From Comamonadaceae bacterium PBBC2 (lineage in GTDB: Bacteria; Pseudomonadota; Gammaproteobacteria; Burkholderiales; Burkholderiaceae_C), in assembly GCA_002255935.1 (NCBI GenBank), contig NKIO01000002.1, positions 1 through 64,000 of the forward strand: a DNA stretch of 64,000 nucleotides, given 5' to 3'. The notes under the pieces were generated by a model. It did not search any database, was not told the DNA's origin, and saw only the letters and a list, made by a program, of their open reading frames with translations. Positions 13,488 through 36,283 of this stretch are shown one piece after another (the stretch's first letter is position 1; each line of letters opens with the position of its first letter). The position numbers and the translations under genes were made by a program.

Positions 13488-14315
13488 ATGACCGCCCTCT
13501 CGCACTCACTCCCCACGCCTGCCGACGCAGCCCGTCAAGCCGCCGAGCTGATCTGGGCGCACTGGCAATCTGGCCAAGTCCTGCGCACCTTGCCCGAACA
13601 CTGCCGCCCCCAAACTGTGGCGCAAGGCTATGCCGCGCAGGCCCAACTGGCGGCCGTATCGGGTCGCACCGTGGTGGGCTGGAAAATCGCCGCCACCAGC
13701 AGCAAGGGGCAAGCCCATATCCAAGTCGGCGGCCCGCTGGCTGGAAGGCTGTTGTCGAGTCAGGTGTTTCAAGATGGCGCCACCATTCCCTCAGCGGGCA
13801 ACCGCATGCGGGTGGCAGAGCCTGAATTCGCCTTTGTCATGGGGCAAGACTTGCCGCCCCAGACCGCGCCCTACAGCACCGCACAAGTCATGCAGGCGGT
13901 GGCCGCTTTGCACACTGCGATCGAGGTGCCTGACTCGCGCCTGTCGCCTTTCACCGAAGCCGGTCAAGCGCAGTTGCTGGCCGACAATGCCTGCGCCCGT
14001 CACTTTGTGCTGGGCCCTGCCGCGCCCGAAGTGTGGCGCACACGCGATTTGAGCCAACACAAGGTACACGCCCGCGTGGAGCGACAAGCAAAGCTGCAGG
14101 GCAACGGCGAAGGCATCGGGGCCCAAGTGCTGGGCGACCCGCGCATCGCGCTGACCTGGCTGGCCAACCAGCTGTCGGGCCTGGGCATCACCTTGGCGCA
14201 AGGCCAGGTGGTCACCACGGGCACTTGCATGACGCCCTTGGACATCGAACCGGGCGATGCCGTCATGGCCGATTACGGCGATCTGGGCCGCGTCACGATG
14301 CGCTTTGCGGACTGA
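13488..14315 (+). CDS. 2-keto-4-pentenoate hydratase-like protein (MhpD/FAH fold)
   Basis: 275 residues from ATG 13488; an extension to 13401 would run through non-coding sequence next to the tRNA. The pattern VVGWKIAATSSKGQAHIQVGGPLAGRL, the acidic RVAEPEFAFVMGQDL (metal ligand motif ExE) and TGTCMTPLDIEPGDAVMADYGDLG match the MhpD/XylJ/4-oxalocrotonate-decarboxylase branch of the FAH superfamily. These hydrate 2-hydroxypenta-2,4-dienoates after ring meta-cleavage, or decarboxylate oxalocrotonates. It converges with the MFS gene (23-bp overlap of 3' ends). It is on the opposite strand to the large catabolic block but functionally fits beside it. Confidence 0.85.
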   Translation: MTALSHSLPTPADAARQAAELIWAHWQSGQVLRTLPEHCRPQTVAQGYAAQAQLAAVSGRTVVGWKIAATSSKGQAHIQVGGPLAGRLLSSQVFQDGATIPSAGNRMRVAEPEFAFVMGQDLPPQTAPYSTAQVMQAVAALHTAIEVPDSRLSPFTEAGQAQLLADNACARHFVLGPAAPEVWRTRDLSQHKVHARVERQAKLQGNGEGIGAQVLGDPRIALTWLANQLSGLGITLAQGQVVTTGTCMTPLDIEPGDAVMADYGDLGRVTMRFAD

Positions 14316-15534
14316 TGGATCGCTGCGTCCACCACAACACCAAGCCACTGGCCGTGGCCATGACCATCAAGCCCACAAACCCAGCGCGGTAAGTGCCAAA
14401 CAAGCCCGACAAGGCCCCAAACATGGGCGGCCCCACCACCACGCCCAAAAACGTGAAGGCCAAGGTGCCGCCGGTGGCCATGCTGGCCATGCCCTTCGGC
14501 GCACGGCGGGCCACTTCGGCCAAATAGACGCCGTTCCAACCAATGGCCGAGGCGCCAAAGGTCACCAAGATCACCAACACCACCGCGCGAGGCGTTTCGG
14601 GCGTCAAGAAGGCCGCCGACAGCGCCCCCAAGCCCATCAGGGTGGCCAGCAGCAGCAACATGCGCCGCGCCCCCAGCCACCGATCGGCCACATAGCCCCA
14701 GACAATGCGCCCGCCAATGCCGCCCATTTGGGTGGCGGACAAAACCAAGCCCGCCGCCACCAGGCCGTAGGACAGCTCTGCGTTCAAGAACGTCACCAAG
14801 TAGGTGGTGAGCGACAACTGCACCATCGAGAACATGAACGAACAAGACGCCATGGTCAACAAAGCGCGATGCGCCAAAACCAGCCGAATGGGTTGCACCA
14901 AACTGCCCCACTGGACCTGAACATCGGGCCGGCGATCACTGTCGAGGTCCGCTCGCATGCGCTGCGCGGTCCAAGCGCACAGCACACACACCAGGGCCAC
15001 CGCGCCCAGACTGGCTTGCCAATTCAGGAACAAAAGCAAAGACGGCACCACCGCACCCGCCAGCATGCTGCCCAAGGGCACACCGGTTTGTTTGAGCGAA
15101 AAAACCAAAGACATCTGGTGCGCTGGCGTGGTGCGGGCCAGCAAGTGCGAGCTGGCCGGGGTGATGGGCCCATAGCCCAAGCCAATCAACACAGCCCCCA
15201 CGGCCATCGCCGGAAACCACGGCACGGCGCACAAAAGCAAGCCCAGGGCACACAGCAGCAAGCCCCATTGGCTCACGCGAATGGCCCCCAGCCTGGCCAC
15301 GGTCGCCCCGCCCAACAAGCTGGCCACCATCGCACCGGCATAGGTGACCGAAACATACAACCCCACCAAAGCCGGCGAGACTTGCATGGCCTGTGCCACC
15401 ACGGGGGCCATCACCGGCACCGTCAGCAAGGCCATGGCCACCATGGCCTGGATGACCAGCGCCAACATCAAGGGCCACCAGTTTTTCAAACGTCCAACTC
15501 CTGCAACACAAGCACCGGTCCAACGCCCGCCCAA
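14293..15534 (-). CDS. MFS transporter
   Basis: About 413 residues with 12 hydrophobic segments. Motif A-like sequence GGATVARLGAIRVSQWG follows TM2, GYGPITPASSHLL lies near TM4 and an FSLKQTGVPLGSML signature lies in TM5, as in aromatic-acid/cyanate-type carriers. The listed 5' end is a TTG four bases after the neighbouring gene's stop; internal starts near 15489 or 15468 (ATG) would still retain TM1, so the start is uncertain. It is the last gene of the minus-strand catabolic block and probably imports or exports a pathway acid. Confidence 0.83.
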   Translation of the reverse strand: MGGRWTGACVAGVGRLKNWWPLMLALVIQAMVAMALLTVPVMAPVVAQAMQVSPALVGLYVSVTYAGAMVASLLGGATVARLGAIRVSQWGLLLCALGLLLCAVPWFPAMAVGAVLIGLGYGPITPASSHLLARTTPAHQMSLVFSLKQTGVPLGSMLAGAVVPSLLLFLNWQASLGAVALVCVLCAWTAQRMRADLDSDRRPDVQVQWGSLVQPIRLVLAHRALLTMASCSFMFSMVQLSLTTYLVTFLNAELSYGLVAAGLVLSATQMGGIGGRIVWGYVADRWLGARRMLLLLATLMGLGALSAAFLTPETPRAVVLVILVTFGASAIGWNGVYLAEVARRAPKGMASMATGGTLAFTFLGVVVGPPMFGALSGLFGTYRAGFVGLMVMATASGLVLWWTQRSISPQSAS

Positions 15535-15538
15535 GCGC

Positions 15539-16516
15539 TCAATTGGCTTTCACGCCTGCTTTGATCAACAGCCCACCCAAGGTGTCGATCTCGTTTTTCA
15601 AGTGGGCACGCAAGGCTTCCGGGCGGGCCAAGTCGGCACTCACCGCAGAAATGCCCATGGCCTCCAAACGTTGGCGCACTTCAGGATCGCTGACCGACTT
15701 TTGCAAGGCCGCGGTCAATTTGTCCATCACCGGCTTGGGGGTGCCTTTGGGGGCATAAAGACCAAACGAGATGTTGATCTCAAAACCCTCGACACCGGCC
15801 TCCGACATCGCGGGCACATCGGGCAGCTGTGACAAACGGGTTTTGCCCGCCGATGCCACCGCCTTGATCTTGCCCGTCTTGACCGAAGGCACCGTGCCGG
15901 AGGTCTGGTCACACAGGACATCCACCTGCCCACCCATGAGGTCGGTCAGCGCAGGGCCCGTGCCTTTGTAGGGGATTTCATTGAGCTTCACATTCAGGGC
16001 GTTCATCATCATCAAGCCGCACAGGTGCGAAGCCGAGCCCACACCCGCATGGGCCAAGCTGACCTTGGGGCCATTCGCTTTAACGTGGTCGACAAACTCT
16101 TGCAAATTCTTGACCGGAAAATCGTTGCGCGTGGCAATCAACATCGGCCCACTGGTGGCCCGCCCAATCGGCTCAAAATCATCCACCGGGTGGTAGGGCA
16201 AACTTTTGTACATCGCGGTGTTGGTGGCATGGCTCACATGAATCATCAGCAAGGTGTAGCCATCGGGCTTGGACCGCGCCACTTTGGCGGTGCCGATCGA
16301 GCCCGATGCCCCTGCGGTGTTGTCCACCACAATTTGCTGGCCCAAGTGCTTTTGCATGGCCCCCGCAAACACACGGGTGATGGTGTCGCCCGGACCGCCT
16401 GCGGCATAGGGCATGACCATGGTGATGCTGCGGTTGGGAAAGTCCTGGGCCGGCGCTTGAAAGGCCAGGGCGGCCAACAACCAAGCGCCCCATCGATGGC
16501 AGCTGAAAATGCGCAT
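15539..16516 (-). CDS. Bug/TctC-family tripartite tricarboxylate transporter receptor
   Basis: 325 residues with a signal peptide (MRIFSCHRWGAWLLAALAFQAPAQ). The Bug family pattern is clear: FPNRSITMVMPYAAGGPGDTITR, QQIVVDNTAGASGSIGTAKVARSKPDGYTLLM and LNEIPYKGTGPALTDLMGGQVDVLCDQTSG. These periplasmic proteins bind small carboxylates or related ligands; many are orphans without TctA/TctB, as here. It sits 31 bp downstream of the carboxymuconolactone-decarboxylase-like gene. First of three Bug genes in this block. Confidence 0.92.
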   Translation of the reverse strand: MRIFSCHRWGAWLLAALAFQAPAQDFPNRSITMVMPYAAGGPGDTITRVFAGAMQKHLGQQIVVDNTAGASGSIGTAKVARSKPDGYTLLMIHVSHATNTAMYKSLPYHPVDDFEPIGRATSGPMLIATRNDFPVKNLQEFVDHVKANGPKVSLAHAGVGSASHLCGLMMMNALNVKLNEIPYKGTGPALTDLMGGQVDVLCDQTSGTVPSVKTGKIKAVASAGKTRLSQLPDVPAMSEAGVEGFEINISFGLYAPKGTPKPVMDKLTAALQKSVSDPEVRQRLEAMGISAVSADLARPEALRAHLKNEIDTLGGLLIKAGVKAN

Positions 16517-16547
16517 GAAAGTCTCCGGTGGTTTTTTGATATTCCGT

Positions 16548-17138
16548 TCAGGCCAGCAAGCGCTGGCGAATTTCCAGGGGGCTGAGCACCTCCAGCGGCT
16601 CTGGCCCGCCCCCAGGTATGCCCACCTGCGTGGCGTTCAGCAGCATGGAGACCATCACATAAGTGCCCGACAAAACCGTCAGATCGACCACGGCTTGTTC
16701 CCCCATCTTGTCCACCGCCTCTTGCCACAAGGCATCGGGCACACGGTGGTTCAAAGACAGTTGAACGCAGTAGTCATACACCAAGCGTTCATCCGCTTGC
16801 ATGCTGGCAGGGCGCTGGCATTGCTGCAATTCGCGCATGACCGCATCTGATAAACCGGCCTTGCGTGCAATGGTCTCGTGCGCCCACCATTCGTACTGCG
16901 CATTGGCGATGCGGGCCTGGATCAAGATGGCCAACTCATTGAGCCGTTTGTTGACCGAGGTCTTGAAGCGCAGGTAATCGAGGAAATCAAAGGCCCGACG
17001 CGCCATATCGGGGCTGCGCAGCAAAGCGTTGTAAGGGCCGCCCAAAGCCGCACTGGAGACCTTGAGGATGTCGTCCGCCAAGGGTCGAACCGCATCGGGC
17101 AAAGACGCGTAAGTGATTTGTTCAAGTCGTTCGCTCAT
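16548..17138 (-). CDS. Carboxymuconolactone decarboxylase-family protein
   Basis: 196 residues, all-alpha AhpD/CMD-like fold. The core FKTSVNKRLNELAILIQARIANAQYEWWAHETIARKAGLS resembles the CMD signature with a Glu/His pair, but the AhpD CxxC pair is absent. Many such proteins are 4-carboxymuconolactone decarboxylase relatives of unknown substrate in aromatic or heterocycle catabolism gene clusters. It lies between the FAH-like and Bug genes with gaps of about 31-33 bp. Confidence 0.8.
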   Translation of the reverse strand: MSERLEQITYASLPDAVRPLADDILKVSSAALGGPYNALLRSPDMARRAFDFLDYLRFKTSVNKRLNELAILIQARIANAQYEWWAHETIARKAGLSDAVMRELQQCQRPASMQADERLVYDYCVQLSLNHRVPDALWQEAVDKMGEQAVVDLTVLSGTYVMVSMLLNATQVGIPGGGPEPLEVLSPLEIRQRLLA

Positions 17139-17171
17139 GGCGTCGCTGCGCTCCCAAAAAATGTTTCCATG

Positions 17172-17957
17172 TCAAACGATCTTGACGCTCAGGTTGGGAA
17201 AGCCGTCGACGTGCATCTCGATCACGTCGCCGCGCACCACTGGGCCCACGTTCTCGGGCGTGCCCGCGTAAATGATGTCGCCCGGGAACAACTCAAAAGC
17301 CTCGGACAGTTGCGCGATTTGCTCGGCCACTGACCAGATCATCTGGTTCAGGTTGGCGTTTTGCTTGATGACACCATTGACCTTGAGCCAGATGCTGCCT
17401 TGCTCAAAATGCCCGGACTGCGCCACCTTGCGGATGGCCCCAATCGGGGCGGACTTGTCAAAGCTCTTGCCGATCTCCCAAGGCTTTTTCTGGTCGCCCA
17501 TGCCGCGCTGCAAATCACGCCGCGTCATGTCCAGGCCCAGGGTGTAGCCATAGACATGCTCCAGCGCTTTGTCCTTGGGGATGTTGCGCCCGCCCTTGCC
17601 CAGCACCGCCACCAACTCGGCCTCGTAGTGGTAGTTTTGGGTCAGCGGTGGATAGGGGTGATCGGCCACCGTGCCCGCCTTCACGTACTGGATGGCGTCG
17701 GTGGGTTTTTGGAAAAAGAAAGGCGGCTCGCGCGTCGGGTCCGAGCCCATCTCCCGCGCATGGGCCGCGTAATTGCGACCGATGCAATAGATGCGGCGCA
17801 CCGGAAACATCTCGTCCGAGCCCTCGATGGGGATGTACGTCGCAGGCACCACAAACGGTGTCTTGGGCTGGCTTTGCGCCATGCCCGGCGTGGCGCATCC
17901 GACCACCGCACCGGTGGTCACCAAGGCGGTGCTTTGAAAGAAATGACGGCGGTCCAT
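17172..17957 (-). CDS. Fumarylacetoacetate hydrolase-family protein with Tat signal
   Basis: 261 residues from ATG 17957, which begins MDRRHFFQSTALVTTGAVVG, a twin-arginine (RRHFF) export signal with a possible Cys at position 21. The mature part is an FAH C-terminal-type domain: RIYCIGRNYAAHAREMG, PFFFQKPTDAIQ, YHYEAELVAVLGKGGRNI (metal ExE motif) and PGDIIYAGTPENVGPVVRGD. FAH enzymes (fumarylpyruvate hydrolase, acylpyruvase, HpcE-type) are normally cytoplasmic, so an exported form is odd. A 207-bp gap with a hairpin element separates it from the monooxygenase gene upstream. Confidence 0.85.
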   Translation of the reverse strand: MDRRHFFQSTALVTTGAVVGCATPGMAQSQPKTPFVVPATYIPIEGSDEMFPVRRIYCIGRNYAAHAREMGSDPTREPPFFFQKPTDAIQYVKAGTVADHPYPPLTQNYHYEAELVAVLGKGGRNIPKDKALEHVYGYTLGLDMTRRDLQRGMGDQKKPWEIGKSFDKSAPIGAIRKVAQSGHFEQGSIWLKVNGVIKQNANLNQMIWSVAEQIAQLSEAFELFPGDIIYAGTPENVGPVVRGDVIEMHVDGFPNLSVKIV

Positions 17958-18018
17958 GTCTGTCTCCTCAAGATAAAGCCCAGTAAAATTTGGACTTTGG
18001 TTTTCAGTTGATCCCGTT

Positions 18019-18094: not shown

Positions 18095-18164
18095 GGTGAA
18101 AGTTTGACGCATCCAGCCCTCTTCACAAGGCCTGATCCATCCGCTGCGAAAAAAACCACGCCGA

Positions 18165-19433
18165 TCAGGCCTGCGTCTTGAGCGCCTCCAATGAAAAACC
18201 AGCGATTTTTTTGTAGTCATCGGAAATTTGGCGCAACTCGGCTTGGCTGATCACGTCGTCGATGTGCCGGAAAGGCTGGCCACCGGTGAGCTCATCGACC
18301 TTGATGTTGATGAAGTCTGGCGGCGTGGTACGGTTGGTCTGCACCACCTTGGCGGTGATGGGACGGCGCACCGCCTCATAGCGGTGCAGCGCAGGCAAGG
18401 GGTCGGCATCACCCTTGGCCAACTCATCGGCCAAGGTGCGGGCATCGATCAGGGCTTGCGCCGAGCCGTTGGAGCCCCGGGGGTACATGGGATGCGCCGC
18501 ATCACCGAGGAAGGTCACGCGCCCAAAGGTCCATTGGTCGATCGGGTCCTTGTCCACCATGGGGTATTCCAGGATCGAGTCCGCCTGGGCAATCAGTTGG
18601 GGCACATCCAGCCAATCGAAGGTCCAGTCCTTGAACAACTTCAACACGTCTTCGGCGCGGCCCGCACGGTTCCAGTCGTTTTGCGTCACGCCCTCTTCCA
18701 TGCGGATTTCGGCCATCCAGTTGACCAGTTGGTGGCCTTGTGCATCGACTTGGTCCACGATGGGGTAGATCACCATCTTGCCTGTCTCGATCGAGCCGAT
18801 GCGCATATAGGTTTTGCCCGTCAAGATGGGGGCAAAGCGCGTCACGCCGCGCCAGGTGTTGATGCCGGTGAACACCATCTGCTCATCCGGGTAGAACACA
18901 CGGCGCACCGCCGAGTTCACCCCATCCGAGGCGATCAGCACCCGGCTGCGCACAGTGGGGCGATCTTGGCCTTGCGGGTCCTTGAAGGTGATGTCCACAT
19001 GGCCCTCGGCTTGCACCATGCGGTCAAAGCGGCAACCGGTGTGCACATGCTCGGTGCCCAATCGCGCCACAGCGGCGTCGAACAAGATCTTGTGCAACTT
19101 GCCACGGTGGATGCCCACCTCGGGCAAGGGGTAGCCTGCATGGCGGCCCCGCAGCTCGCTGTAGATGAACTGGCCATGGCGATTGAAGAAGGCACTTTCG
19201 TAGTTCTCGATGCCCACCGCTTCGATGGCCGATTGCAAGCCCAAAGCGGCCAGCTCGCGCATGGCGTGGGGCAACAAGGTGATGCCCACGCCCAATTCGC
19301 GCACCTCGGCCACCGCCTCAAACACATGGCAGGGCACGCCCCGCGCATGCAAATGCAGCGCCAGCGCCAGGCCGCCAATGCCGCCACCCACGATGGCGAT
19401 GTCTGCTTGTTGAATGTGCATGTGGTTCATCAT
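18165..19433 (-). CDS. FAD-dependent aromatic-ring monooxygenase (PhzS/salicylate hydroxylase-like)
   Basis: 422 residues from ATG 19433, whose ATG overlaps the preceding Bug stop (ATGA). Class A flavoprotein monooxygenase motifs: IAIVGGGIGGLALALHLHAR (dinucleotide fold), a DG motif in RVLIASDGVNSAVRR, and FLGDAAHPMYPRGSNGSAQALID. The last is close to the PhzS-type flavin oxidoreductases rather than to classical p-hydroxybenzoate hydroxylase. It should use NAD(P)H and O2 to hydroxylate an aromatic or N-heteroaromatic acid. Last gene of the tightly overlapped stretch before the 207-bp gap. Confidence 0.87.
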   Translation of the reverse strand: MMNHMHIQQADIAIVGGGIGGLALALHLHARGVPCHVFEAVAEVRELGVGITLLPHAMRELAALGLQSAIEAVGIENYESAFFNRHGQFIYSELRGRHAGYPLPEVGIHRGKLHKILFDAAVARLGTEHVHTGCRFDRMVQAEGHVDITFKDPQGQDRPTVRSRVLIASDGVNSAVRRVFYPDEQMVFTGINTWRGVTRFAPILTGKTYMRIGSIETGKMVIYPIVDQVDAQGHQLVNWMAEIRMEEGVTQNDWNRAGRAEDVLKLFKDWTFDWLDVPQLIAQADSILEYPMVDKDPIDQWTFGRVTFLGDAAHPMYPRGSNGSAQALIDARTLADELAKGDADPLPALHRYEAVRRPITAKVVQTNRTTPPDFINIKVDELTGGQPFRHIDDVISQAELRQISDDYKKIAGFSLEALKTQA

Positions 19434-20410
19434 TCCGCCGAAATTTGTTTGGTGCGGATCACCGCGCCCCAACGGGGGTAGTCTTTGGCCACAATGGCCG
19501 CCAATTCAGCCGGTGTGGAGGCCACGGCATCCAGACCGGCTTTGCCCAGCAGTTCCTTGACGTCGGCTTGTCGCAAGATGGCCGACATCTCGGTGTTCAA
19601 ACGGGTGACCACAGCGGCCGGTGTTTTGCTGGGCACAAAGAAGGCATACCAAAGGTCCACGTCGATGCGCTTGACGCCCACTTCTTCAAAAGTGGGCACA
19701 TCGGGCGCCACCGGGTGCCGCTTGGGGCTGCCCAAGGCCAGCGCATTCAAGCGGCCGTTTTTGACAAAGCCCTGCGCAATGTGCACCGGCAAAAAGCCCA
19801 CATTCAACTCGCCTGCCAACAGGTCCTGTGTGTAGCCCGCCGTGCCACGGTAGGGCACGTGCAGCATGAAGGTGTTGGTCTCCAGCTTGAACAGCTCCAT
19901 CGCCATGTGGTGGGGCGTGCCCACGCCGGGCGAGCCAAAGCTGATCGAGCCTGGGCGCGCTTGCACCTGCTTGACCAAATCGGCCACCGATTTGATGCCG
20001 GTTTTCGGGTTGGCCACCATCATCAAAGAACCATAGGCGGCCATCGAAACCGCCGAGAAATCCTTGACCGGATCAAAGCTCACGCTCTTGTACATCTGCG
20101 CGGCCATCAGCATGGTGTTGGCCCCCATCAAGATGGTGTGGCCGTCGGGTGCCGATTTGGCCACCGCATCGGCACCGATGTTGCCGCTGGCACCGGGTTG
20201 GTTTTGCACCACCACCGATTGCCCCAGCCGCTCGGCCAAGCGCGGCGCCACCACGCGAGCGATGGTGTCCATGCCGGTACCCGGCGTGAAGGGCACGATG
20301 ATCTTGAGGGATTGGCTGGGGTAAGTGCCTTGCGCAGACACCCCCAGGCCGAGGGTGCTGAGCATGAGCGCGGCAATGGCCGAGATTTTCTGGCGTTGCG
20401 TGAAGTTCAT
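19430..20410 (-). CDS. Bug/TctC-family solute receptor
   Basis: 326 residues from ATG 20410, beginning MNFTQRQKISAIAALMLSTL, with a signal peptide ending near GVSAQG. A longer reading frame continues upstream into the amidohydrolase gene but is a shadow. Family motifs: LKIIVPFTPGTGMDTIARVV, SVVVQNQPGASGNIGADAVAKS and FMLHVPYRGTAGYTQDLLAGELNVGFLP. Periplasmic receptor of unknown ligand, 22 bp after the amidohydrolase gene. Confidence 0.92.
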   Translation of the reverse strand: MNFTQRQKISAIAALMLSTLGLGVSAQGTYPSQSLKIIVPFTPGTGMDTIARVVAPRLAERLGQSVVVQNQPGASGNIGADAVAKSAPDGHTILMGANTMLMAAQMYKSVSFDPVKDFSAVSMAAYGSLMMVANPKTGIKSVADLVKQVQARPGSISFGSPGVGTPHHMAMELFKLETNTFMLHVPYRGTAGYTQDLLAGELNVGFLPVHIAQGFVKNGRLNALALGSPKRHPVAPDVPTFEEVGVKRIDVDLWYAFFVPSKTPAAVVTRLNTEMSAILRQADVKELLGKAGLDAVASTPAELAAIVAKDYPRWGAVIRTKQISAE

Positions 20411-20432: not shown

Positions 20433-21506
20433 TCAAACGGCTTGGATGGCAGGCGGGATCTTGAACAGCCGCTCAGCGTTGTCCTGGAAGAACGCCTGGC
20501 GCACCTGCGGCGCCATGTCCAACCCTTCCAAAATGCCCACTTCTTCGGGGGCGTATTGGTAGGGGTAGTCCATCGCATACAGCACGCGGTCGGGCCCCAT
20601 GAAGTCTTGCGTGAACTTGAGCGCAGCGCCCCATGCCACACCGCTGTTGGTGATGTGGAAGTTCTCGCGCAGGTAGTCGCTGGGTTTTTTCTTCGTGGGC
20701 TGGATGCTCGGGTAGCGCTTGGACTTGACGGTGGCCGCGTGCATGTAATCGAGCCTGTATGCCCAAAACGGCAAGGCCTCGCCCATGTGACCCAAGATGA
20801 TCTGCAGCTTGGGGAAACGGTCGAACACACCCGAGGTGATCAAACGCAAAGCGTGCAAACCGGTCTCCACGCCAAAACCGTAAATCGCGCCATCCAAACC
20901 CGCTTCGATGAAGTGCTGGATCATGCTGGCCGGCATGGCGTTGGGGTGCAAATAAATCGGCGTGCCCATCGCCTCGGCGGCTTCAAAGATGGGCCAGAAC
21001 TTGGTGTCTGACAAATACTCGCCTTGCGTGTGCGAGTTGATCACCACCGAATGCATGTTCAGCTGGTTCACACCGCGCTGGATTTCTTTGGCGGCAGCGG
21101 CTGGGTCTTGCGGCGCGACCGCGATCATGCCCACCAAGCGATCGGGGTGGCGACGCATGGCCGCCGCCAAGATGTCGTTGGCCACCGGCGCAAACGACAC
21201 CGCCGTGTCTTTGTCCATGATCTGCACGCCAGGCGAGGTCAGGCCGATGACCTGCACATCCACACCCGCTTCGTCCATGTGCTGCAGGCGCAGATCGTCC
21301 AGATCCACCAGGCAACGCATGATGTGCTGCGCCCGTTCGCTGGGGCTGCTCATGTAAAAACCCATCAGGTGTTTGAAGCCCACATCCACATCGCCCTTGG
21401 CCAAGATCTTGTTGTAGATCTCCAGCATCTCAGGTGGCGAGAAGGCCTCTTCGGTGGCAATGCGTCGGTAAGGCCGCTGAGGCAGTGGGATCAAAGTCTT
21501 GCTCAT
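20433..21506 (-). CDS. Amidohydrolase-family decarboxylase (ACMSD / gamma-resorcylate / 5-carboxyvanillate type)
   Basis: 357 residues. The N-terminal RRIATEEAFSPPEML shows the (A/T)xEE variant seen in LigW/gamma-resorcylate decarboxylases in place of HxH. The His in PIYLHPNAMP, the His in IILGHMGEALPFWAYRLDY and the Asp in VLYAMDYPYQYAPEE complete the metal site. These enzymes decarboxylate aromatic carboxylates (or hydrolyse related compounds) without oxygen. The gene overlaps the lyase gene upstream by 4 bp. The decarboxylase subtype is inferred; the substrate is unknown. Confidence 0.85.
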   Translation of the reverse strand: MSKTLIPLPQRPYRRIATEEAFSPPEMLEIYNKILAKGDVDVGFKHLMGFYMSSPSERAQHIMRCLVDLDDLRLQHMDEAGVDVQVIGLTSPGVQIMDKDTAVSFAPVANDILAAAMRRHPDRLVGMIAVAPQDPAAAAKEIQRGVNQLNMHSVVINSHTQGEYLSDTKFWPIFEAAEAMGTPIYLHPNAMPASMIQHFIEAGLDGAIYGFGVETGLHALRLITSGVFDRFPKLQIILGHMGEALPFWAYRLDYMHAATVKSKRYPSIQPTKKKPSDYLRENFHITNSGVAWGAALKFTQDFMGPDRVLYAMDYPYQYAPEEVGILEGLDMAPQVRQAFFQDNAERLFKIPPAIQAV

Positions 21507-28642: not shown

Positions 28643-29925
28643 GCCAGCACCTCCCGTGCATCGCTGATGCGCCCGCGCAAGGCCGAAGCCGCGACGGTGT
28701 AGGGCGAAGCCAAATACACGTTCACACTGGCCGGGCCCATGCGGCCCTTGAAATTGCGTGCCGTGCTCGAGATCACAGTGGCCCCTTCCGGGAAGGTCGC
28801 GCCATAGCCCGCGCAAGCGCCACAGCTGTTGGGCAGCACGATGGCGCCTGCGTCTTGCAGGATTTGCATCACGCCTTCTTGGTGCGCTTGGGCTTGGTCG
28901 CGGGCACTGGCCGGCGCCACCATGAGCTGCACGCCCGCGGCCACGCGCTGCCCCTTGAGCACCGAGGCGGCGGCGCGCAGGTCTTCGAGCTTGGCGCCGG
29001 TGCAGGCACCGATGTAGGCAATGCTGGGCAACACGTCTGAAAATTCGGCCACATCGCGCGTGTTGGCCGGGCTGTGCGGTGCCGCCACTTGCGGGCTCAA
29101 ACGCGTGGCATCAAACATGTGCTGCTCGAATTCGGCGTCGTCGTCGGTGAACCATTGCCCGGCACTTTCCAGGTGTTCTGGCGCCACCCCGATCGATCGC
29201 AGATGGTTCAAGGTGGTGGCGTCCGCTGCGATCAAGCCCGCTTGCGCCCCCATCTCGGCGCTCATATTGGACAAAGTCATGCGCTCGGCCATCGACATGG
29301 CTTGCACCGCCGTGCCGGAAAACTCCACCGCTTGGTATTGGCCGCCATTCATGCCAAAGCGGCCGATCATGTGCAGCATCATGTCTTTGGCCGACACACC
29401 GGCTTGCAAGCGGCCATGCCAGTGCATGCGCAAGGTGCGCGGCACCTGCACCCAGATCTGGCCGGTCACACACACGCCCAGCATCTCGGTGGCCCCAATG
29501 CCAAACATGTAGCAACCAAACGCGCCGCCCGTGGGCGAATGCGAGTCACCGCCCACACAGAACATGCCGGGCTTCAAATGCCCGCGCTCGGGCAGCACCA
29601 CATGGCAAATGCCTTCGCTGTCGATGACATGTGGCAGCTGCCACTGTTTGGCGGTGTCGCGGGTGATCTGGATGATCTTTTGCGCATCGGCGTCTTGTGC
29701 GGGCACATAGTGGTCCAGCACCAGCACCACTTTGTTTTTGTCCCAAATGTCCGCACCCAATTCGTCGAGCATGGGCTTGAGGCGCCGAGGACCCGAGGAG
29801 TCGTGGAACATGGCCAAGTCCACGTTGCAAGTGACCACCTCACCCACGGCGACATGGCTGCGCCCGGCGGCGCGGGCAATCAGCTTCTGGGCCAAGGTTT
29901 GCGGCAAAGAAGTGCTGGCGTTCAT
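28639..29925 (-). CDS. Aconitase-superfamily hydro-lyase large subunit (LeuC/DmdA-like)
   Basis: 428 residues, the length of the archaeal/DmdA-type large subunit rather than the 465-470 of proteobacterial LeuC. Three Fe-S cysteines are visible: YIGACTGAKLEDLRAAA and the CxxC in LPNSCGACAGYGATF. HDSSGPRR near residue 41, GICHVVLPERGHLKPGMFCVGGDSHSPTGGAFG and ISSTARNFKGRMGP are family motifs. It should carry a [4Fe-4S] cluster and (de)hydrate a maleate- or malate-type acid. Its start overlaps the Bug gene stop by 4 bp. Confidence 0.88.
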   Translation of the reverse strand: MNASTSLPQTLAQKLIARAAGRSHVAVGEVVTCNVDLAMFHDSSGPRRLKPMLDELGADIWDKNKVVLVLDHYVPAQDADAQKIIQITRDTAKQWQLPHVIDSEGICHVVLPERGHLKPGMFCVGGDSHSPTGGAFGCYMFGIGATEMLGVCVTGQIWVQVPRTLRMHWHGRLQAGVSAKDMMLHMIGRFGMNGGQYQAVEFSGTAVQAMSMAERMTLSNMSAEMGAQAGLIAADATTLNHLRSIGVAPEHLESAGQWFTDDDAEFEQHMFDATRLSPQVAAPHSPANTRDVAEFSDVLPSIAYIGACTGAKLEDLRAAASVLKGQRVAAGVQLMVAPASARDQAQAHQEGVMQILQDAGAIVLPNSCGACAGYGATFPEGATVISSTARNFKGRMGPASVNVYLASPYTVAASALRGRISDAREVLA

Positions 29926-30890
29926 TCGGCTTGGGCTCCTGCATACTGGACCACGGATTTCCAGCGCACGATCTCGTGGCTGACAAAGCGTGCAAATTCT
30001 TCGGGGCTGTTGCCCACGGGGCTGGCCCCTTCGCTCTCGATGCGGCGCTTGACCTGCGCGGTCTGCACGGCCGCGCGGGCGGCATCGGACAAGCTCTTAC
30101 TCAGCTCGGGGCTCATGCGCGCAGGCCCAAACAAACCGAACCAGGCGCTCGACTCGTAACCAGGCAAGCTCTCGCCCATGGCAGGCACCTCCGGGAAAGC
30201 CGCCAGGCGCTTGGCACTGGTCACACCTAAGGCCTTGAGCTTGCCCGCCTTGATGTGCGCCTGCACATTGCCCACGGCGGCAAACATCAAATCCACCTGC
30301 CCAGCCAGCACGTCTTGCACGGCCGGGGCCGTGCCGCGGTAAGGGATGTTCACGATGAACACGCCCGCTTTCATCTTGAATGCGTCCCCCGCCAAATGCA
30401 GCGAGGAACCCATGGCGCCGATGGCAAAGTTCAGCTGGCCGGGCTTGGCTTTGGCCAAGGCGATCAGCTCGGACACATTGTTGGCCGGCAGCTTGGGGTG
30501 CGCCACCAAGACCGAGGGCGATGTGGACACCATGGTCAAAGGCGTGAAGTCTTTGACAGGGTCGAAAGGCAAATGGGGGTACAGCGAGGCGTTGATCGCA
30601 TGGCTGGTGAAACTCATCAGCAAGGTGTTGCCATCGGGCGCGGCCTTGGCCACCGCATCGGCGGCCAGGTTACCGCCCGCACCGGCTTTGTTCTCGACCA
30701 AGATGGTGCGGCCCAGTTGCTGGCCCATCGCTTGCGCCAAGGTCCGGGCCATGGTGTCGGTGGTGCCGCCGGCGGGCGCGCCCACCCAAATGCGGATGGG
30801 CGGCTGCACCTGCGCCCACACGGGCAAACACAGGCTCAGGCCCACCAGAGTGACCCAGCGCATCAGGCAACGCATTGACCCATGCTGCAT
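29922..30890 (-). CDS. Bug/TctC-family solute receptor
   Basis: About 322 residues from ATG 30890; ATGs at 30875 and 30863 are alternatives, and no strong ribosome-binding site discriminates. A longer reading from 30962 would run into livF. The signal peptide MRWVTLVGLSLCLPVWAQ is followed by PIRIWVGAPAGGTTDTMARTLA, TILVENKAGAGGNLAADAVAKAAPDGNTLLM and FIVNIPYRGTAPAVQDVLAGQVDLMFAAVG. Third Bug gene of the block, placed between livF and the hydro-lyase genes. Confidence 0.9.
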   Translation of the reverse strand: MQHGSMRCLMRWVTLVGLSLCLPVWAQVQPPIRIWVGAPAGGTTDTMARTLAQAMGQQLGRTILVENKAGAGGNLAADAVAKAAPDGNTLLMSFTSHAINASLYPHLPFDPVKDFTPLTMVSTSPSVLVAHPKLPANNVSELIALAKAKPGQLNFAIGAMGSSLHLAGDAFKMKAGVFIVNIPYRGTAPAVQDVLAGQVDLMFAAVGNVQAHIKAGKLKALGVTSAKRLAAFPEVPAMGESLPGYESSAWFGLFGPARMSPELSKSLSDAARAAVQTAQVKRRIESEGASPVGNSPEEFARFVSHEIVRWKSVVQYAGAQAE

Positions 30891-30897
30891 GCTGCGC

Positions 30898-31608
30898 TCA
30901 CATGCCCAAATAAGCTTGGCGCAACGTGTCGCTGGCCAGCAGTTCGGCGGGTGTGCCCGCAAAACGGATCGCGCCGTTTTCCATCACATACGCGCGGTCG
31001 GCAATGTCCAGCGACTGGCCCACGTTTTGCTCGACCAGCAAGACCGCCAAGCCCGTGCTGCGCAATTGGGCGATCAGCGCGAACATTTCCTCGACCAAGA
31101 GCGGCGACAAGCCCAGCGACGGCTCGTCCAGGATCAGCAAGCGCGGCTCGGCCATCAGGCCCCGGCCAATGGCCAGCATCTGCTGCTCGCCACCGCTGAG
31201 CGTGCCCGCCAACTGCGTCACGCGCTCTTTCAGGCGCGGGAAGGTCTCGTACACCTTGTCCAGGTTTTGCGCCCGGCGCTCGCGGCCACGGGTGAAGGCG
31301 CCCAGCTCCAGGTTTTCGTGCACGCTCAGGTTGGGGAAGACCTTGCGGCCCTCGGGCACATGGATCAAACCGTGGGCCACCACCTCGCGCGAATGCCAAC
31401 CTGTGATGTCTTGGCCATCGAACTGCACCTGCCCACCCCGTGTGGCCACCAAGCCACTGAGGGTGAGGTTGAGCGTGGTCTTGCCTGCGCCGTTGCTGCC
31501 CAAGAGCGCCACGGTTTCGCCAGGCATGACCTGCAGGTCCACACCGCGCAAAACCTCGACCGCGCCGTAGCCCGATTGCAGGCCCTGCACATTCAACAAC
31601 GCGTTCAT
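30898..31608 (-). CDS. livF: Branched-chain-type ABC transporter ATP-binding protein
   Basis: 236 residues, LivF length. Walker A GSNGAGKTT, signature LSGGEQQM, Walker B LLILDEPSLGLSPLLVEE and switch His in LLVEQNVGQSL. ATPase of an importer whose other parts (livG, livM, livH, substrate-binding gene) follow upstream on the same strand with 4-bp overlaps or a 15-bp gap. Liv-type systems in catabolic clusters often import aromatic or heterocyclic acids or amides rather than branched-chain amino acids. Confidence 0.93.
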   Translation of the reverse strand: MNALLNVQGLQSGYGAVEVLRGVDLQVMPGETVALLGSNGAGKTTLNLTLSGLVATRGGQVQFDGQDITGWHSREVVAHGLIHVPEGRKVFPNLSVHENLELGAFTRGRERRAQNLDKVYETFPRLKERVTQLAGTLSGGEQQMLAIGRGLMAEPRLLILDEPSLGLSPLLVEEMFALIAQLRSTGLAVLLVEQNVGQSLDIADRAYVMENGAIRFAGTPAELLASDTLRQAYLGM

Positions 31609-32381
31609 GGCTGGGCCTCCTGGGCGGCTTGGGCTTGTGCCACGCTCTTTTGCAAACGCTCGGCTGTGCCGTGGCCCAGATAGGCCTCGACCACGGCTTT
31701 GTTGTTCGTCACTTCGGCGGGCGTGCCGTGGGCAATCAATTGCCCTTGCGCCAGCACCCAGACTTCTTGCGCCAAGCTCATCACGGCTTGCATGACGTGC
31801 TCGATCATGAGCACCGTCACACCGCTTTGGGCAATGCTTTGCACCACCGGGATCATCTCGGCAATTTCTTGTGGGTTCAGCCCGGCCAGCACCTCGTCCA
31901 GCAGCAAGAGGCGCGGGCGCGTGGCCAGCGCACGCGCCAGCTCCAGCCGCTTGCGACCCGCCACCGTGAGGTCACTCGCCAATTTGTCCAGCTGGGGCGT
32001 CAGGCCCACTTGGCCCGCCACCGATTCGGCAAACTCAAGGGCTTGCGCACGGCCCGGCAGGTGCAGGTGGGCACCCACGGCAATGTTTTCACGCACCGTC
32101 TGCGCGGCAAAGGGCTGCACGATCTGGAAGGTGCGGGTCAGGCCCATGCGGGCGTTCAGGTGCGGCGCTTGGCCGGTGATGTCTTGATCTGCAAACACCA
32201 CACGACCGGTGTCGGGCACGATGAAGCCCGACATCAGCGCAAACAAGGTCGTCTTGCCTGCGCCGTTGGGGCCGATCAAAGCACTCAGGCGCCCTTCGGT
32301 CACCGACAGGCTGACGTTTTGCACGGCCTTGAGGCCCCCAAAGGATTTGCCCACGCCGTCGATTTGCATCAGCGTGCTCAT
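31605..32381 (-). CDS. livG: Branched-chain-type ABC transporter ATP-binding protein
   Basis: 258 residues, LivG length. Walker A GPNGAGKTTLFALMSGF, the LivG-type TRTFQIVQPF segment, a Walker B region LLLLDEVLAGLNPQE and switch His in MIEHVMQAVM. The signature reads LTVAGRKRLELARAL in place of the usual LSxGQ, a common LivG variant. Overlaps livF and livM by 4 bp each. Confidence 0.93.
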   Translation of the reverse strand: MSTLMQIDGVGKSFGGLKAVQNVSLSVTEGRLSALIGPNGAGKTTLFALMSGFIVPDTGRVVFADQDITGQAPHLNARMGLTRTFQIVQPFAAQTVRENIAVGAHLHLPGRAQALEFAESVAGQVGLTPQLDKLASDLTVAGRKRLELARALATRPRLLLLDEVLAGLNPQEIAEMIPVVQSIAQSGVTVLMIEHVMQAVMSLAQEVWVLAQGQLIAHGTPAEVTNNKAVVEAYLGHGTAERLQKSVAQAQAAQEAQP

Positions 32382-33370
32382 GATTGGCCTCCGTGTTTGT
32401 CGCCTTCAGCGGCCTTGCTGCCGCGCAGCCACTGCAACGGCGTGATGGTGCCCAGGCCCGCAATGCCGCGGGGCAAGAACATCACGATCACGATCAGGAC
32501 CACGCCGTAGATGACCATGTTGATGCCCGGCAATTGACCGAACAAATTGCGCGTGACATCGGCCAAGATGTGCAGACTGACCGCCCCGAGCAGCGGGCCC
32601 CACAAGGTGCCCAGGCCGCCCACGATCGCGCCCACCAAGGCCTCGACCGAGGTGTGCGAGCCAAAGGCAATGCCCGGATCGATGTACTGGAAGACCTGCA
32701 CATAAAACGCGCCGCCAGCGCCCATCAAACCGCCCGACAAAATGGTGGCCACCAACTTGACTTGGAAGGGGTTGACGCCAATCGCGCGGGCTGCGTCTTC
32801 GTTGTCGCGCACCGCTTGCAGATACGCCCCAAAGCGCGAAGCCTTGAGCCAAGCGGTCACGCACAGCGCCAGCGTGACCAGGCCCAGCATCAGCCAAATG
32901 AAACCCGCACGGCTGACAAACTGCATGTTGGCGGCCGATTCCTTGAGCGGCAGCATCAAGCCCACGCCCGCGCCGGTGAAGGGCACCGAGGTGGCCACGA
33001 TGCGAAACACCTCGGCAAAAGCCAACGTGACCAGCGCAAAGTAAGACCCCTTGAGGCCATAGCGGAACGAGGCCGCGCCCACGAAGGCACCCACACCGGC
33101 GGCAAAAGCCATGGCCAGTGGCAAGGCCACCCAGGGGCTCAGGCCCCACTGCATTTGCGCGATGGCCTGCACATACGCGCCCGTGCCAAAAAACAGCGCG
33201 TGTCCGAATGAAAACTGCCCACCAAAACCACCCAGCACGTTCCAGGCTTGCGAGAGCAAACAGGCATACAGCGCGGTCATCACAAAGTTGAGCACCACTC
33301 CCGACTGGGTGAAAAACGGCACGGCCCCGATGACCAAAGCAAACAGCGCGATGCGGCGAAAGTCTTTCAT
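32378..33370 (-). CDS. livM: Branched-chain-type ABC transporter permease
   Basis: 330 residues with about nine hydrophobic segments. LivM signatures: GGFGGQFSFGHALFFGTGAYVQA, AVRDNEDAARAIGVNPFQVKLVATILSG (the EAA-like cytoplasmic loop) and VGAIVGGLGTLWGPLLGA. Inner-membrane channel subunit working with livH. Confidence 0.93.
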   Translation of the reverse strand: MKDFRRIALFALVIGAVPFFTQSGVVLNFVMTALYACLLSQAWNVLGGFGGQFSFGHALFFGTGAYVQAIAQMQWGLSPWVALPLAMAFAAGVGAFVGAASFRYGLKGSYFALVTLAFAEVFRIVATSVPFTGAGVGLMLPLKESAANMQFVSRAGFIWLMLGLVTLALCVTAWLKASRFGAYLQAVRDNEDAARAIGVNPFQVKLVATILSGGLMGAGGAFYVQVFQYIDPGIAFGSHTSVEALVGAIVGGLGTLWGPLLGAVSLHILADVTRNLFGQLPGINMVIYGVVLIVIVMFLPRGIAGLGTITPLQWLRGSKAAEGDKHGGQS

Positions 33371-34239
33371 GCCTTCGCTCCAAAAAAGCCCTGCGGCCTG
33401 AACATCAGCACCACAATGAAAATCACAAAAATACCCACCTGGCCCAGCGACTCACCCAAGAGCAAACCGCCCAGCGACTCCACCACGCCAATGAGCAAAC
33501 CGCCCAGCAAGGCCCCGGCAAAGCTGCCCATGCCGCCCAGCACCACGATGGTGAAAGCCACCAGCACAAAGCCATTGCCCACCTGTGGGTTCACGTAATA
33601 AGCGGGCAACAAAAAGCAGGCTGCTGCGCCCAGACTGGCCAGGCCCAAGCCAAAGCACATGGCGTACACATGGTCCACATCGATGCCCATCAGGCGGGCA
33701 CCTTGCTTTTCCTTGGACACCGCACGGATGGCGCGGCCCAGATCGGTCTTTTGCACGATGAGCAGCAGCGCTGCGGACACCACCAAGGCCCCGGCAAAGG
33801 CCACCAACTTGGGCAAGGCGATGAAGGCCGGGCCGATCTCGACCGTGCTCAAGGTGTAGGCGGTGTCGATGCTGCGTGTGTCCGACTTGAAGAACAACAG
33901 CGCCAAGTTTTCCAGCACGATGGACAAGCCCAGCGTGACCAGCAAAATGTTTTCGTCCTTGCCATGGCTGGCGCGGTTGATGACTCCGCGCTGCAAGGCA
34001 TAGCCCAGCACGAACATGGCAGGCACCATGATCGGCAAGGCCATGTAGGGATCGACCCCGAGCTTTTCCTTGAGCAGGTACACGCCATACAACGCCACCA
34101 TCAAGGCCGCGCCATGCGCGAAATTGATGATGTGCAGCACGCCATAAATCAGCGTCAGGCCCAGCGCAATGAGCGCATACACGGCACCGGTGGTGATGCC
34201 GTTGAGCACGGATGGGAAAAGGATGTTCCAGTCGAGCAT
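33367..34239 (-). CDS. livH: Branched-chain-type ABC transporter permease
   Basis: 290 residues with about eight hydrophobic segments. LivH features: NGITTGAVYALIALGLTLIYGVLHIINFAHGAALMV at the N-terminus, AIRAVSKEKQGARLMGIDVDHVYAMCFGLG in the coupling loop, and FTIVVLGGMGSFAGALLGGLLIG. It overlaps livM by 4 bp and lies 15 bp after the binding-protein gene. Confidence 0.93.
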   Translation of the reverse strand: MLDWNILFPSVLNGITTGAVYALIALGLTLIYGVLHIINFAHGAALMVALYGVYLLKEKLGVDPYMALPIMVPAMFVLGYALQRGVINRASHGKDENILLVTLGLSIVLENLALLFFKSDTRSIDTAYTLSTVEIGPAFIALPKLVAFAGALVVSAALLLIVQKTDLGRAIRAVSKEKQGARLMGIDVDHVYAMCFGLGLASLGAAACFLLPAYYVNPQVGNGFVLVAFTIVVLGGMGSFAGALLGGLLIGVVESLGGLLLGESLGQVGIFVIFIVVLMFRPQGFFGAKA

Positions 34240-34254
34240 CGGGGTCCTTGTGGC

Positions 34255-35457
34255 TTAACCCTTGAGCGGGAAAACCGGTTCCACTTCGCGGTAGTCGCGC
34301 GGCACGATCACCTTGATGTCGCCCTTGTAGACCTGTGTCATCAAAGGCTGTGCGCCGGTGTTCTGGCCGTTCACAAACTGTGTGGGGCCGTAGGGCATGA
34401 TGTGGTTTTCAAACTTGCTCGAAGCCAGCGCGTCGATGATGGCGGCGCGGTCGGGCGACTTGGCGCGCTCGATCGCATCGGCCAGCAGCATCATGGCGGT
34501 GTAGGTCATGAACACTTCGTAGCTGAAGAACTGGCCTTGGGCTTCGACCCGCTTTTTGAGCGCGGCAGAGCGCTTGTCTTTGGGGTTGAACCAGTGGTTG
34601 CAGTCGATGATGCCGTTGGCCGCCTCTGGGAACTCCTTGACGAATTTGTAGCTCGACGCCGCACCACCCAACACCGAATAGATGGCCTTGGGCGTGATCT
34701 TTTGCTGCTGCAAGGTGCGCACCAGCAAGGCGTATTCGTTGTAGTAGTTGGCGGGGATCAAGATGTCGGGGTTGACCTGCTTGATGCGCAGCGCGATGTT
34801 GTTGAAGTCACGCGTGGGGTTGGCGTGCTTGATGATCTCTTTGACCTCGTAGCCATAGCCGGGCAATTCTTTGGCCAGCAAGTTGGCGGTACCTGTGCCA
34901 AACAAAGACTCTTCGTGCACGATCATCACGGTGCGGGCGGGCTTGCCAGCGGCGGTGTTCAGGGCGTGCAGGCTGGCCACGGCGACTTCGGCGCATTTCT
35001 TGTAGCCAGGGCCAAAGCGGAAGGTGTTCTTCAGGCCGCGCTCCACGATCTGGTCGGCCACGCCGACGTCCACCACGTGGGGCAGGTTGTACTTGGCAGC
35101 CGCCTGTGTGGTGGCCAAGCAAATGGCCGAGGCGAAGGCACCGACCACAGCGCTCACACCGGCTTCGTTCATCTTCTCGATTTCGGCAATGCCCGCTTGC
35201 GGGTTGGACTGGGCATCGCCCAGCATGGCTTCGAGCTTGGCGCCACCCAGTGATTTGATGCCGCCGGCCTTGTTGATGTCTTCGATCGCCATTTGCGCCC
35301 CCATGCGGCACTGCTGGCCTGAGTAAGCCAGGGCGCCCGTGACGGGGTGCAAAACACCGATCTTGATGGGCTTGGGTTGTGCCCCTCCCACCAACGGAAA
35401 CGCGAGTGCCGAAGCCGCAGCAGCGGACTGGCCCATGAAATGGCGACGTGTGGTCAT
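34255..35457 (-). CDS. Liv-type ABC transporter periplasmic substrate-binding protein
   Basis: 400 residues, peripla_BP_6 (type I) fold: IKIGVLHPVTGALAYSGQQCRMGAQMAIEDINKAGGI, EKMNEAGVSAVVGAFASAICLATTQAA and VMIVHEESLFGTGTANLLAKEL. The N-terminus MTTRRHFMGQSAAAASALAFP has a twin-arginine motif, so export is probably through Tat. It resembles the amide/urea or aromatic-acid receptor branch more than LivJ/LivK by general pattern, but the ligand cannot be assigned. It is the first structural gene after the GntR regulator (22 bp). Confidence 0.9.
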   Translation of the reverse strand: MTTRRHFMGQSAAAASALAFPLVGGAQPKPIKIGVLHPVTGALAYSGQQCRMGAQMAIEDINKAGGIKSLGGAKLEAMLGDAQSNPQAGIAEIEKMNEAGVSAVVGAFASAICLATTQAAAKYNLPHVVDVGVADQIVERGLKNTFRFGPGYKKCAEVAVASLHALNTAAGKPARTVMIVHEESLFGTGTANLLAKELPGYGYEVKEIIKHANPTRDFNNIALRIKQVNPDILIPANYYNEYALLVRTLQQQKITPKAIYSVLGGAASSYKFVKEFPEAANGIIDCNHWFNPKDKRSAALKKRVEAQGQFFSYEVFMTYTAMMLLADAIERAKSPDRAAIIDALASSKFENHIMPYGPTQFVNGQNTGAQPLMTQVYKGDIKVIVPRDYREVEPVFPLKG

Positions 35458-35479
35458 GGAAACATCCTTTACGTGAAGG

Positions 35480-36283
35480 TCAATGAAAGTTGGCGGACAA
35501 CTCCTGGCTCACCCACACCTTGGCATCGATGCTGCCAACGCGCGACAACTGCATTTGGTATTCGTACCGGTCCGGGCGGTACAAGCCATGCAGCCATTGG
35601 ACGGGACGATCGTCCTCGTCGTAGATCAAGCGCCGCACCGCCAACAAGGCCGATCCGACGGACACATCCAGGTGCTGGGCCATGCCCACATCGGCCAGAC
35701 GGGCCGAAATGGTTTGCTCAGCACGCCCCACCTTGACGCCCGACTCTTCGAGCAGCACCAAGATGGGCTTTTGCATCAGTTCACGTTTGCCAAAGCCCGA
35801 CGAGATGGACTCGGGCACCCAGGTGGTGATGTGCGACAAAGGCCCTTCGGGCGTGCTGCGCACACGCTCGGCCTTTTGCACGGCCGCACCGGCTTGCAGC
35901 TGCAAAGCGGCCGCCACATCCACCGGCGCACGCATGCGCTCGACCGACAAGACCTTGACCTTGGTGCGCAGGCCCATGGTGACCAGGTTCTCCAGCAAGC
36001 CCGTCAGGCGTGCCTGCTGGCCTGTGGCCATGGTGGCCGCCTGCATCTGCACCTCGTTGGCACGCGCCACCACGGGGCGGGTGCCGCGACCGGGCTCGCG
36101 GCTGATCAGGCCTTCTTGCGCCAACTGCGACAAGGCACGGCGCACCGTGACGCGGGCCACACCAAACTGGTCCATCAAAGCCATCTCGCCCGGCAAGCCG
36201 GCATCGAAACGGCCTTCACGCAATTGCTCGCGCAGCACCAGATAAATCTGGTGGTACTTGGGCAAAGGCAAATTGGCATTCAT
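35480..36283 (-). CDS. GntR-family regulator with UTRA ligand domain (HutC type)
   Basis: 267 residues. An N-terminal winged helix (about residues 8-75) with LPGEMALMDQFGVARVTVRRALSQLAQEGLISREPGRGT is textbook GntR. The C-terminal UTRA domain (about 95-255) includes HITTWVPESISS and LLAVRRLIYDEDDRPVQWLHGLYRPDRYEYQM. It likely senses a pathway acid or intermediate and represses the block that follows it in the same direction. Two operator-like sites lie in the 196-bp divergent region towards gnd. Confidence 0.92.
   Translation of the reverse strand: MNANLPLPKYHQIYLVLREQLREGRFDAGLPGEMALMDQFGVARVTVRRALSQLAQEGLISREPGRGTRPVVARANEVQMQAATMATGQQARLTGLLENLVTMGLRTKVKVLSVERMRAPVDVAAALQLQAGAAVQKAERVRSTPEGPLSHITTWVPESISSGFGKRELMQKPILVLLEESGVKVGRAEQTISARLADVGMAQHLDVSVGSALLAVRRLIYDEDDRPVQWLHGLYRPDRYEYQMQLSRVGSIDAKVWVSQELSANFH

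Follow-up and report, generated by a model that had tools for sequence, protein, structure and literature searches.

The 64,000-nucleotide stretch of DNA analyzed here, referred to as the window, comes from Comamonadaceae bacterium PBBC2, a freshwater bacterium of Limnohabitans type (contig NKIO01000002.1, positions 1 to 64,000; contig C61 of a 3.7-Mb assembly in 144 contigs) and carries 21 genes, g01 to g21, all on the minus strand between positions 14293 and 36283. Comparison with relatives indicates that this block is not one pathway; it consists of a core (GntR regulator, Liv importer, DmdAB-type hydratase, HyuBA, g12, g13 and g14) and an accessory tail, g15 to g21. We read the core, g01 to g14, with a probability of roughly 0.5, as an operon under GntR control that takes up and breaks down a substituted cyclic imide with a five-membered ring.

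The block described in the original prediction was real, all 21 open reading frames (ORFs) being located there, and its estimate of at least ten junctions with 4-bp overlaps agreed with the 11 of 20 counted. The widest intergenic gaps were 207 bp (g17/g18) and 70 bp (g20/g21). Overlaps and gaps refer to the chosen starts, which for seven genes were set inside the longest ORF (g07, 30890; g09, 28642; g10, 28142; g16, 20410; g17, 19433; g18, 17957; g21, 15468). A Pfam scan covered all 21 proteins, and NCBIfam models were also used. The genes are listed below with coordinates, strand, product and basis; counts out of 27 refer to the close relatives defined in the next section.

g01, 35480-36283, minus: GntR/UTRA regulator (Pfam)
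g02, 34255-35457, minus: Liv-type solute-binding protein (Pfam)
g03, 33367-34239, minus: LivH permease (Pfam)
g04, 32378-33370, minus: LivM permease (Pfam)
g05, 31605-32381, minus: LivG ATPase (Pfam)
g06, 30898-31608, minus: LivF ATPase (Pfam)
g07, 29922-30890, minus: Bug/TctC receptor 1 (Pfam; found in only some relatives)
g08, 28639-29925, minus: DmdA/LeuC-like hydro-lyase large subunit (Pfam, NCBIfam, alignment)
g09, 28139-28642, minus: DmdB/LeuD-like small subunit (NCBIfam TIGR02087, above cutoff)
g10, 26457-28142, minus: HyuB (Pfam; start chosen)
g11, 24388-26460, minus: HyuA (Pfam; solved relatives)
g12, 23789-24391, minus: isochorismatase-fold protein, Gly146 at the catalytic-cysteine position, Asp14 and Lys113 kept (Pfam, alignments, AlphaFold model)
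g13, 22381-23784, minus: fumarate-reductase-family flavoprotein, Tyr296 and Tyr438 aligned to the two active-site Arg of that family (Pfam, solved matches, alignment)
g14, 21503-22384, minus: ICL/PEPM-superfamily lyase, PKRCGH motif (Pfam, solved matches, alignment)
g15, 20433-21506, minus: LigW-like decarboxylase, accessory (closest solved match; 6/27)
g16, 19430-20410, minus: Bug receptor 2, accessory (Pfam; 11/27)
g17, 18165-19433, minus: PhzS-like flavin monooxygenase, accessory (NCBIfam, solved matches; 10/27)
g18, 17172-17957, minus: FAH-family hydrolase, accessory (Pfam; 7/27)
g19, 16548-17138, minus: CMD-like protein, accessory (sub-threshold CMD; 12/27)
g20, 15539-16516, minus: Bug receptor 3, accessory (Pfam; 10/27)
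g21, 14293-15468, minus: MFS transporter, accessory (Pfam; 10/27)

Conserved core, patchy tail and a putative operator

All 21 genes were looked for in 45 genome-contig loci that carry a g12 homologue, with at most 10 kb on each side. Five loci truncated at the end of a contig (L016, L022, L037, L053 and L057) were left out of the counts. HyuB, HyuA, g12 and g14 stood together on one strand in all 40 uncut loci, which include records titled Beta-, Alpha- and Gammaproteobacteria; the order HyuB-HyuA-g12-g14 is not due to chance. The flavoprotein g13 was found in 38 of the 40, and g08 together with g09 in 34; a contig end accounts for two of the six loci where the pair was missing. Among the 45 named loci, 31 had a g12 that was 90-98% identical, and most of these were titled Limnohabitans or Comamonadaceae.

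The tail was counted in the 30 rows of L013-L045 that hold g14. Of these, 27 extended 7.2 kb or more downstream, and a gene scored as absent is one not found in the sequence that was fetched. Single tail genes occurred in 6 (g15) to 12 (g19) of these 27 close relatives, and all seven together in none. No tail gene at 40% identity or more was detected in the four close relatives L023, L042, L043 and L044, and none in ten more distant loci (L046-L052, L054-L056), some of whose stretches were short. Because the core is constant while the tail is patchy across relatives, the two are considered separate modules, the tail having been appended in this strain, where it may channel aromatic acids into the core or have only the promoter in common with it. 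Scattering of the genes in relatives had been proposed as a test of the block: the core stayed linked, and g15-g21 did not.

In the wider searches, g12 was found at E ≤ 1e-30 in 10 of 299 genomes of the window's family, its own included. HyuA was found at E ≤ 1e-150 in 21 of 398 genomes of the phylum, eight of them (own included) with at least 60% identity, and all seven others of these eight carried g12 and g14 in the same stretch. No g12 or g14 was found beside the weaker HyuA matches of L098 and L099, the two inspected of 16 at 43-49%. On plasmids, g12 was present in 31 records, and in the ten that were fetched and compared, HyuB, HyuA and a Gly-bearing g12 were kept in all, g14 in nine and g13 in seven. 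The Pfam families of neighboring genes in the relatives' loci gave no clue to the pathway. One locus (L018, CALQKH020000003.1), titled as an Akkermansia muciniphila bin, holds a Limnohabitans-type copy of the core with a g12 of 96% identity; this bin is probably mis-named or contaminated.

Two operator-like palindromes were located upstream of g01:

36309-36326, minus: proximal operator-like palindrome TGTTCTATTGACAGGACA (position kept in relatives; exact match once in the genome)
36331-36348, no strand assigned: second operator-like palindrome, core GTCCTATCGATAGGAC, 22 bp upstream of the proximal one (comparison of relatives)

Comparison covered 21 loci, namely the window, 15 Limnohabitans-like loci and five genomes of the same family. 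In all 21 the proximal palindrome was present at 12-14 of 16 positions, 39-46 nt before the GntR start; the best palindrome score in nine more distant loci was 9-11. The second palindrome matched at 11-16 of 16 positions in the window and in L122-L135, and was not at that place in L136-L141. The exact consensus occurred once in the genome. With three or fewer mismatches there were five strand matches genome-wide, three of them in this promoter, versus six for the reversed control. No other operator was found within the window. A promoter scan gave no sigma-70-like match at the GntR start, so the -35 and -10 boxes were read by eye: TTGACA (36319-36314), at the center of TGTTCTATTGACAGGACA, and AACGAT (36296-36291), with a 17-nt spacer. 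The -10 box ends 7 nt before the g01 ATG; the predicted transcript start is thus at or near this ATG, and the transcript may be leaderless. One regulator and one putative site fit these data, with probable read-through into the tail.

Protein families and active-site residues

For g12, Asp14 and Lys113 were kept in 59 of 59 aligned homologues, and the position of the catalytic cysteine was glycine (Gly146) in all 59. RutB, the best match in a profile search, has its cysteine aligned there. The Asp-Lys-Cys triad of a cysteine amidase is therefore incomplete, and g12 is no ordinary cysteine amidase. Amide removal, a step of the original prediction, would suit g12 by genomic context, but not by ordinary cysteine-amidase chemistry. 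Cys168, invariant in all 59 homologues, may stand in as the nucleophile, or g12 may work as true isochorismatases do. Five AlphaFold models had mean pLDDT values of 87.6 (g12), 83.4, 75.6, 74.5 and 74.2. RefSeq names the homologues in L112, L114, L115, L116, L120 and L121 'cysteine hydrolase' despite the glycine at the cysteine position.

The best solved matches of g13 were flavocytochrome c fumarate reductase and urocanate reductase. His259 and His396, aligned to fumarate reductase histidines that we take to have a substrate role, were kept in 52 of 52 sequences. In flavocytochrome c, Arg402 and Arg544 are catalytic and substrate-binding; the aligned residues in g13 were tyrosines, Tyr296 in 52 of 52 and Tyr438 in 51 of 51. 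The Neorhizobium motif reads GYLGGN, with the tyrosine still there. Since both arginines are replaced by tyrosine, the substrate of g13 is suggested to be a carbonyl compound or an imide and not a dicarboxylate.

The K(R/K)CGH motif with the catalytic cysteine was present in g14 as PKRCGH, in 16 of 16 sequences and throughout a 52-row alignment. The petal death protein ranked first in a profile search, with 245 bits. Against the NCBIfam equivalog for PrpB (2-methylisocitrate lyase), g14 scored 292.5 bits (cutoff, 354.4), and a role in the methylcitrate cycle was rejected on this ground. The only other match to g14 in the host genome was an 85-residue stretch of 44% identity on contig C8.

The HyuA and HyuB Pfam domains carried by g11 and g10 place them in the HyuAB superfamily. 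Among solved structures, HyuA matched N-methylhydantoinase best (432 bits), followed by 5-oxoprolinase (397 bits) and carboxylase subunits (at most 290 bits). Scores against the NCBIfam equivalogs for caprolactamase CapAB were 523 and 275 bits, below their cutoffs of 1000.

The pair g08/g09 has the aconitase large and swivel domains on two subunits (Pfam, NCBIfam), and the three [4Fe-4S] cysteines of g08 (C308, C368 and C371) were kept in 49 of 49 sequences. A role in leucine biosynthesis was rejected, as the host genome has a separate aconitase-family gene on contig C125, 36% identical to g08 and presumably the host LeuC, and a third family member on contig C22. The slot of this pair varied among relatives. 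DmdAB was found in the Paraburkholderia and Variovorax plasmid loci; a LeuC-type pair, 34-37% identical to g08, was found in two Azospirillum loci (after the flavoprotein), two Sulfitobacter loci (divergent) and Tistrella; the Neorhizobium and Roseomonas plasmid loci had a protein named MmgE/PrpD by RefSeq; the Allorhizobium plasmid locus had only a DmdB-like match of 37%, at its edge; and in L056 an IlvD/EDD-type dehydratase followed g12. By their families, LeuCD, MmgE/PrpD and perhaps IlvD proteins appear to fill the hydratase slot. Tistrella had no g14 but a CoA-transferase and an acyl-CoA dehydrogenase. In genome G034 (locus L090), g12 and a GntR gene were found without the core HyuAB (best match 35%). 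Their neighbors there are a flavin monooxygenase, an arylmalonate-decarboxylase/racemase-like protein, a porin, a LeuCD-like pair, a CoA-transferase and an enzyme resembling HMG-CoA lyase, perhaps a variant of the pathway that arrives at the same intermediate. Such exchange of hydro-lyases and lyase steps is expected if a malate-type acid is formed by hydration and then cleaved.

Across all 21 proteins, the family names given in the original prediction were right by Pfam, with two refinements, both in the tail: g15 was nearest to LigW, and g19 scored 18.4 bits against the CMD family (cutoff 23), a sub-threshold match. The ACMSD label for g15 was rejected, the 5-carboxyvanillate decarboxylase LigW being far closer. 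The solved matches of g17, PDB 2rgj and 3c96, are presumably PhzS. Next to the block, a plus-strand enoyl-CoA hydratase gene (12091-12882) and a second FAH-like ORF (13401-14315) face the 3' end of the operon. Farther away, a plus-strand gene for a Rieske oxygenase whose C-terminal domain is of the LigXa type (43059-44501) overlaps a plus-strand glutamine-synthetase-like gene (44498-45976) by 4 bp; the two, at 43059-45976, are a possible catabolic pair for an amine or an aromatic compound.

A candidate imide pathway and its alternatives

From the families, gene order and residue substitutions described above, we infer the following route for the core. The Liv importer, joined by Bug receptor 1 in some strains, would bring the substrate in. 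The flavoprotein g13 would oxidize a substituted succinimide to the maleimide, fixing the cis geometry, and HyuAB (g10/g11) would open the maleimide to a maleamate at the expense of ATP. Ammonia would then be freed by g12 to give a cis-diacid, without a cysteine nucleophile and probably aided by the neighboring carboxylate. Disubstituted maleamates lose their amine with help of the neighboring carboxylate, so a nucleophile could be unnecessary in g12. The DmdAB-type pair g08/g09 would hydrate the cis-diacid to a 2-alkylmalate, and g14 would split this into a 2-oxo acid and a carboxylic acid. A scheme of dehydrogenation, imide hydrolysis, ammonia release, hydration and cleavage uses every core enzyme and explains why a later step falls to a cis-specific hydratase. 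Opening of an imide or ring amide by HyuAB, a maleate-type cis-diacid, LeuCD-like hydration and lyase cleavage had been anticipated in the original prediction, and genomic context supports them; that scheme gave no role to g13, whose residues point to a carbonyl-type substrate.

Several observations weigh against the imide route. Amidases of the isochorismatase fold use the cysteine that g12 lacks, and HyuA is near N-methylhydantoinase. In the g14 profile search, methylisocitrate lyases, with 231-241 bits, came close behind the petal death protein, and 2,3-dimethylmalate lyase of known structure was lower at 207; a single-sequence search ranked the petal death protein tenth (181 bits; first match, 194). 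The flavoprotein g13 was absent in L050, L056, the plasmid loci L113, L117 and L119, and the L097 listing. Since G034 has g12 without the core HyuAB, g12 is not tied to HyuAB. Of the four genomes with no DmdAB at the locus (L051, L052, L054 and L056), three had only matches of 43% identity or less and one had no match at E ≤ 1e-30. The MmgE-named slot proteins matched no NCBIfam model at 1e-8. Finally, g12 was missing from two of the four genomes searched in the window's genus, where the core is thus not universal.

Four other explanations were weighed. In a hydantoin- or pyrimidine-type route, HyuAB would act on a hydantoin-like ring, and g12 would take off the carbamoyl group in the manner of RutB or N-carbamoylsarcosine amidohydrolase. 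This would agree with the best matches of HyuA and g12, N-methylhydantoinase and RutB, respectively; however, the RutB cysteine aligns with Gly146, and the conserved hydratase and malate-type lyase would be left without a role, so that this route is unlikely. Ranked after it is isochorismatase-like acid catalysis by g12 on an enamine or vinyl ether, with HyuAB opening a lactam, g13 making the enamine and the diacid coming from elsewhere. True isochorismatases, too, are not known to have the cysteine, and g12 has lost it while keeping Asp14 and Lys113. Yet the product would be a ketone or an aldehyde, which is no substrate for a cis-diacid hydratase, and in G034 the partners of g12 are a LeuCD-like pair, a CoA-transferase and an enzyme resembling HMG-CoA lyase.

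The single 21-gene pathway of the original prediction comes next in our ranking and is improbable. In it, g15 and g17 would decarboxylate and hydroxylate an aromatic or N-heterocyclic acid, which would be opened and then passed to HyuAB, the hydratase and the lyase. Here the tail is probably co-transcribed, because g14 and g15 overlap by 4 bp and the window has no other operator, and g16 and g17 recur in 11 and 10 of the 27 relatives. Against this pathway stand the relatives with no tail gene, the absence of the complete tail from every relative, and Pfam scans that found no ring-cleavage dioxygenase among the 21 proteins. Very improbable is HyuAB acting as an ATP-dependent carboxylase in a cluster that assimilates a ketone or small acid: the family does include acetone and acetophenone carboxylases, but HyuAB has two subunits only, and HyuA scores lower against the carboxylases than against N-methylhydantoinase and 5-oxoprolinase.

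Candidate substrates and comparison with known systems

The sequence itself names no substrate for the imide operon, and tetrapyrrole maleimides are our guess. Maleimides arise when tetrapyrroles are oxidized. According to PMC10343206, heme oxidation ends in hematinic acid and methylvinylmaleimide, and hematinic acid is formed from chlorophyll a in senescent leaves; PMC8669743 describes maleimides as degradation products of tetrapyrrole pigments. The cluster could, rather tentatively, let bacteria use the maleimides in which the breakdown of chlorophyll, heme and bilins ends, namely hematinic acid and ethylmethylmaleimide, together with the dihydro form of each, with HyuAB as an ATP-dependent imidase and g12 as a cysteine-free maleamate hydrolase using intramolecular catalysis. 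Hematinic acid would then yield pyruvate and glutarate, and the ethylmethyl form pyruvate and butyrate, or 2-oxobutyrate and propionate. Searches of open-licence papers found neither this gene combination nor a HyuAB-type route for substituted imides, nor any biochemistry of it.

If the imide reading is true, Limnohabitans in fresh water, Sulfitobacter in sea water and Azospirillum in soil share a pathway that regains the nitrogen and carbon of substituted imides, and testable roles follow for a HyuAB clade, a flavoprotein family and a cysteine-free member of the cysteine-hydrolase fold. Should tetrapyrrole maleimides be the substrates, the pathway would also address the fate of pigment end-products in sunlit waters.

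Each part of the core resembles a known system and departs from it. The g12 protein has the fold, Asp and Lys of the ureidoacrylate amidohydrolase RutB and the maleamate amidohydrolase NicF (PDB 3uao, which we take to be NicF), and differs from both in the glycine at the cysteine position. Compared with flavocytochrome c fumarate reductase and urocanate reductase, g13 has kept the two histidines, whereas both active-site arginines are tyrosine. HyuAB is of the same two-subunit family as N-methylhydantoinase, 5-oxoprolinase and caprolactamase, but its clade is one found alongside g12 and g14. The motif EGGKTP, where PrpB has EFGATP, is shared by g14 and the carnation petal death protein (PDB 1zlp), which, unlike the bacterial g14, is a plant enzyme. 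Alkylmalates are the substrates of the petal death protein. A 2005 paper on this protein appears by title in the reference list of PMC7609661.

The hydratase and lyase steps resemble the end of a known fermentation. Nicotinate fermentation in Eubacterium barkeri ends with the dimethylmaleate hydratase DmdAB, followed by 2,3-dimethylmalate lyase. As in E. barkeri, an aconitase-type two-subunit hydratase for a cis-diacid would be followed in the window by an ICL/PEPM lyase giving a 2-oxo acid and an acid; unlike in E. barkeri, the neighbors of the pair here include HyuAB, g12, a flavoprotein and a Liv importer.

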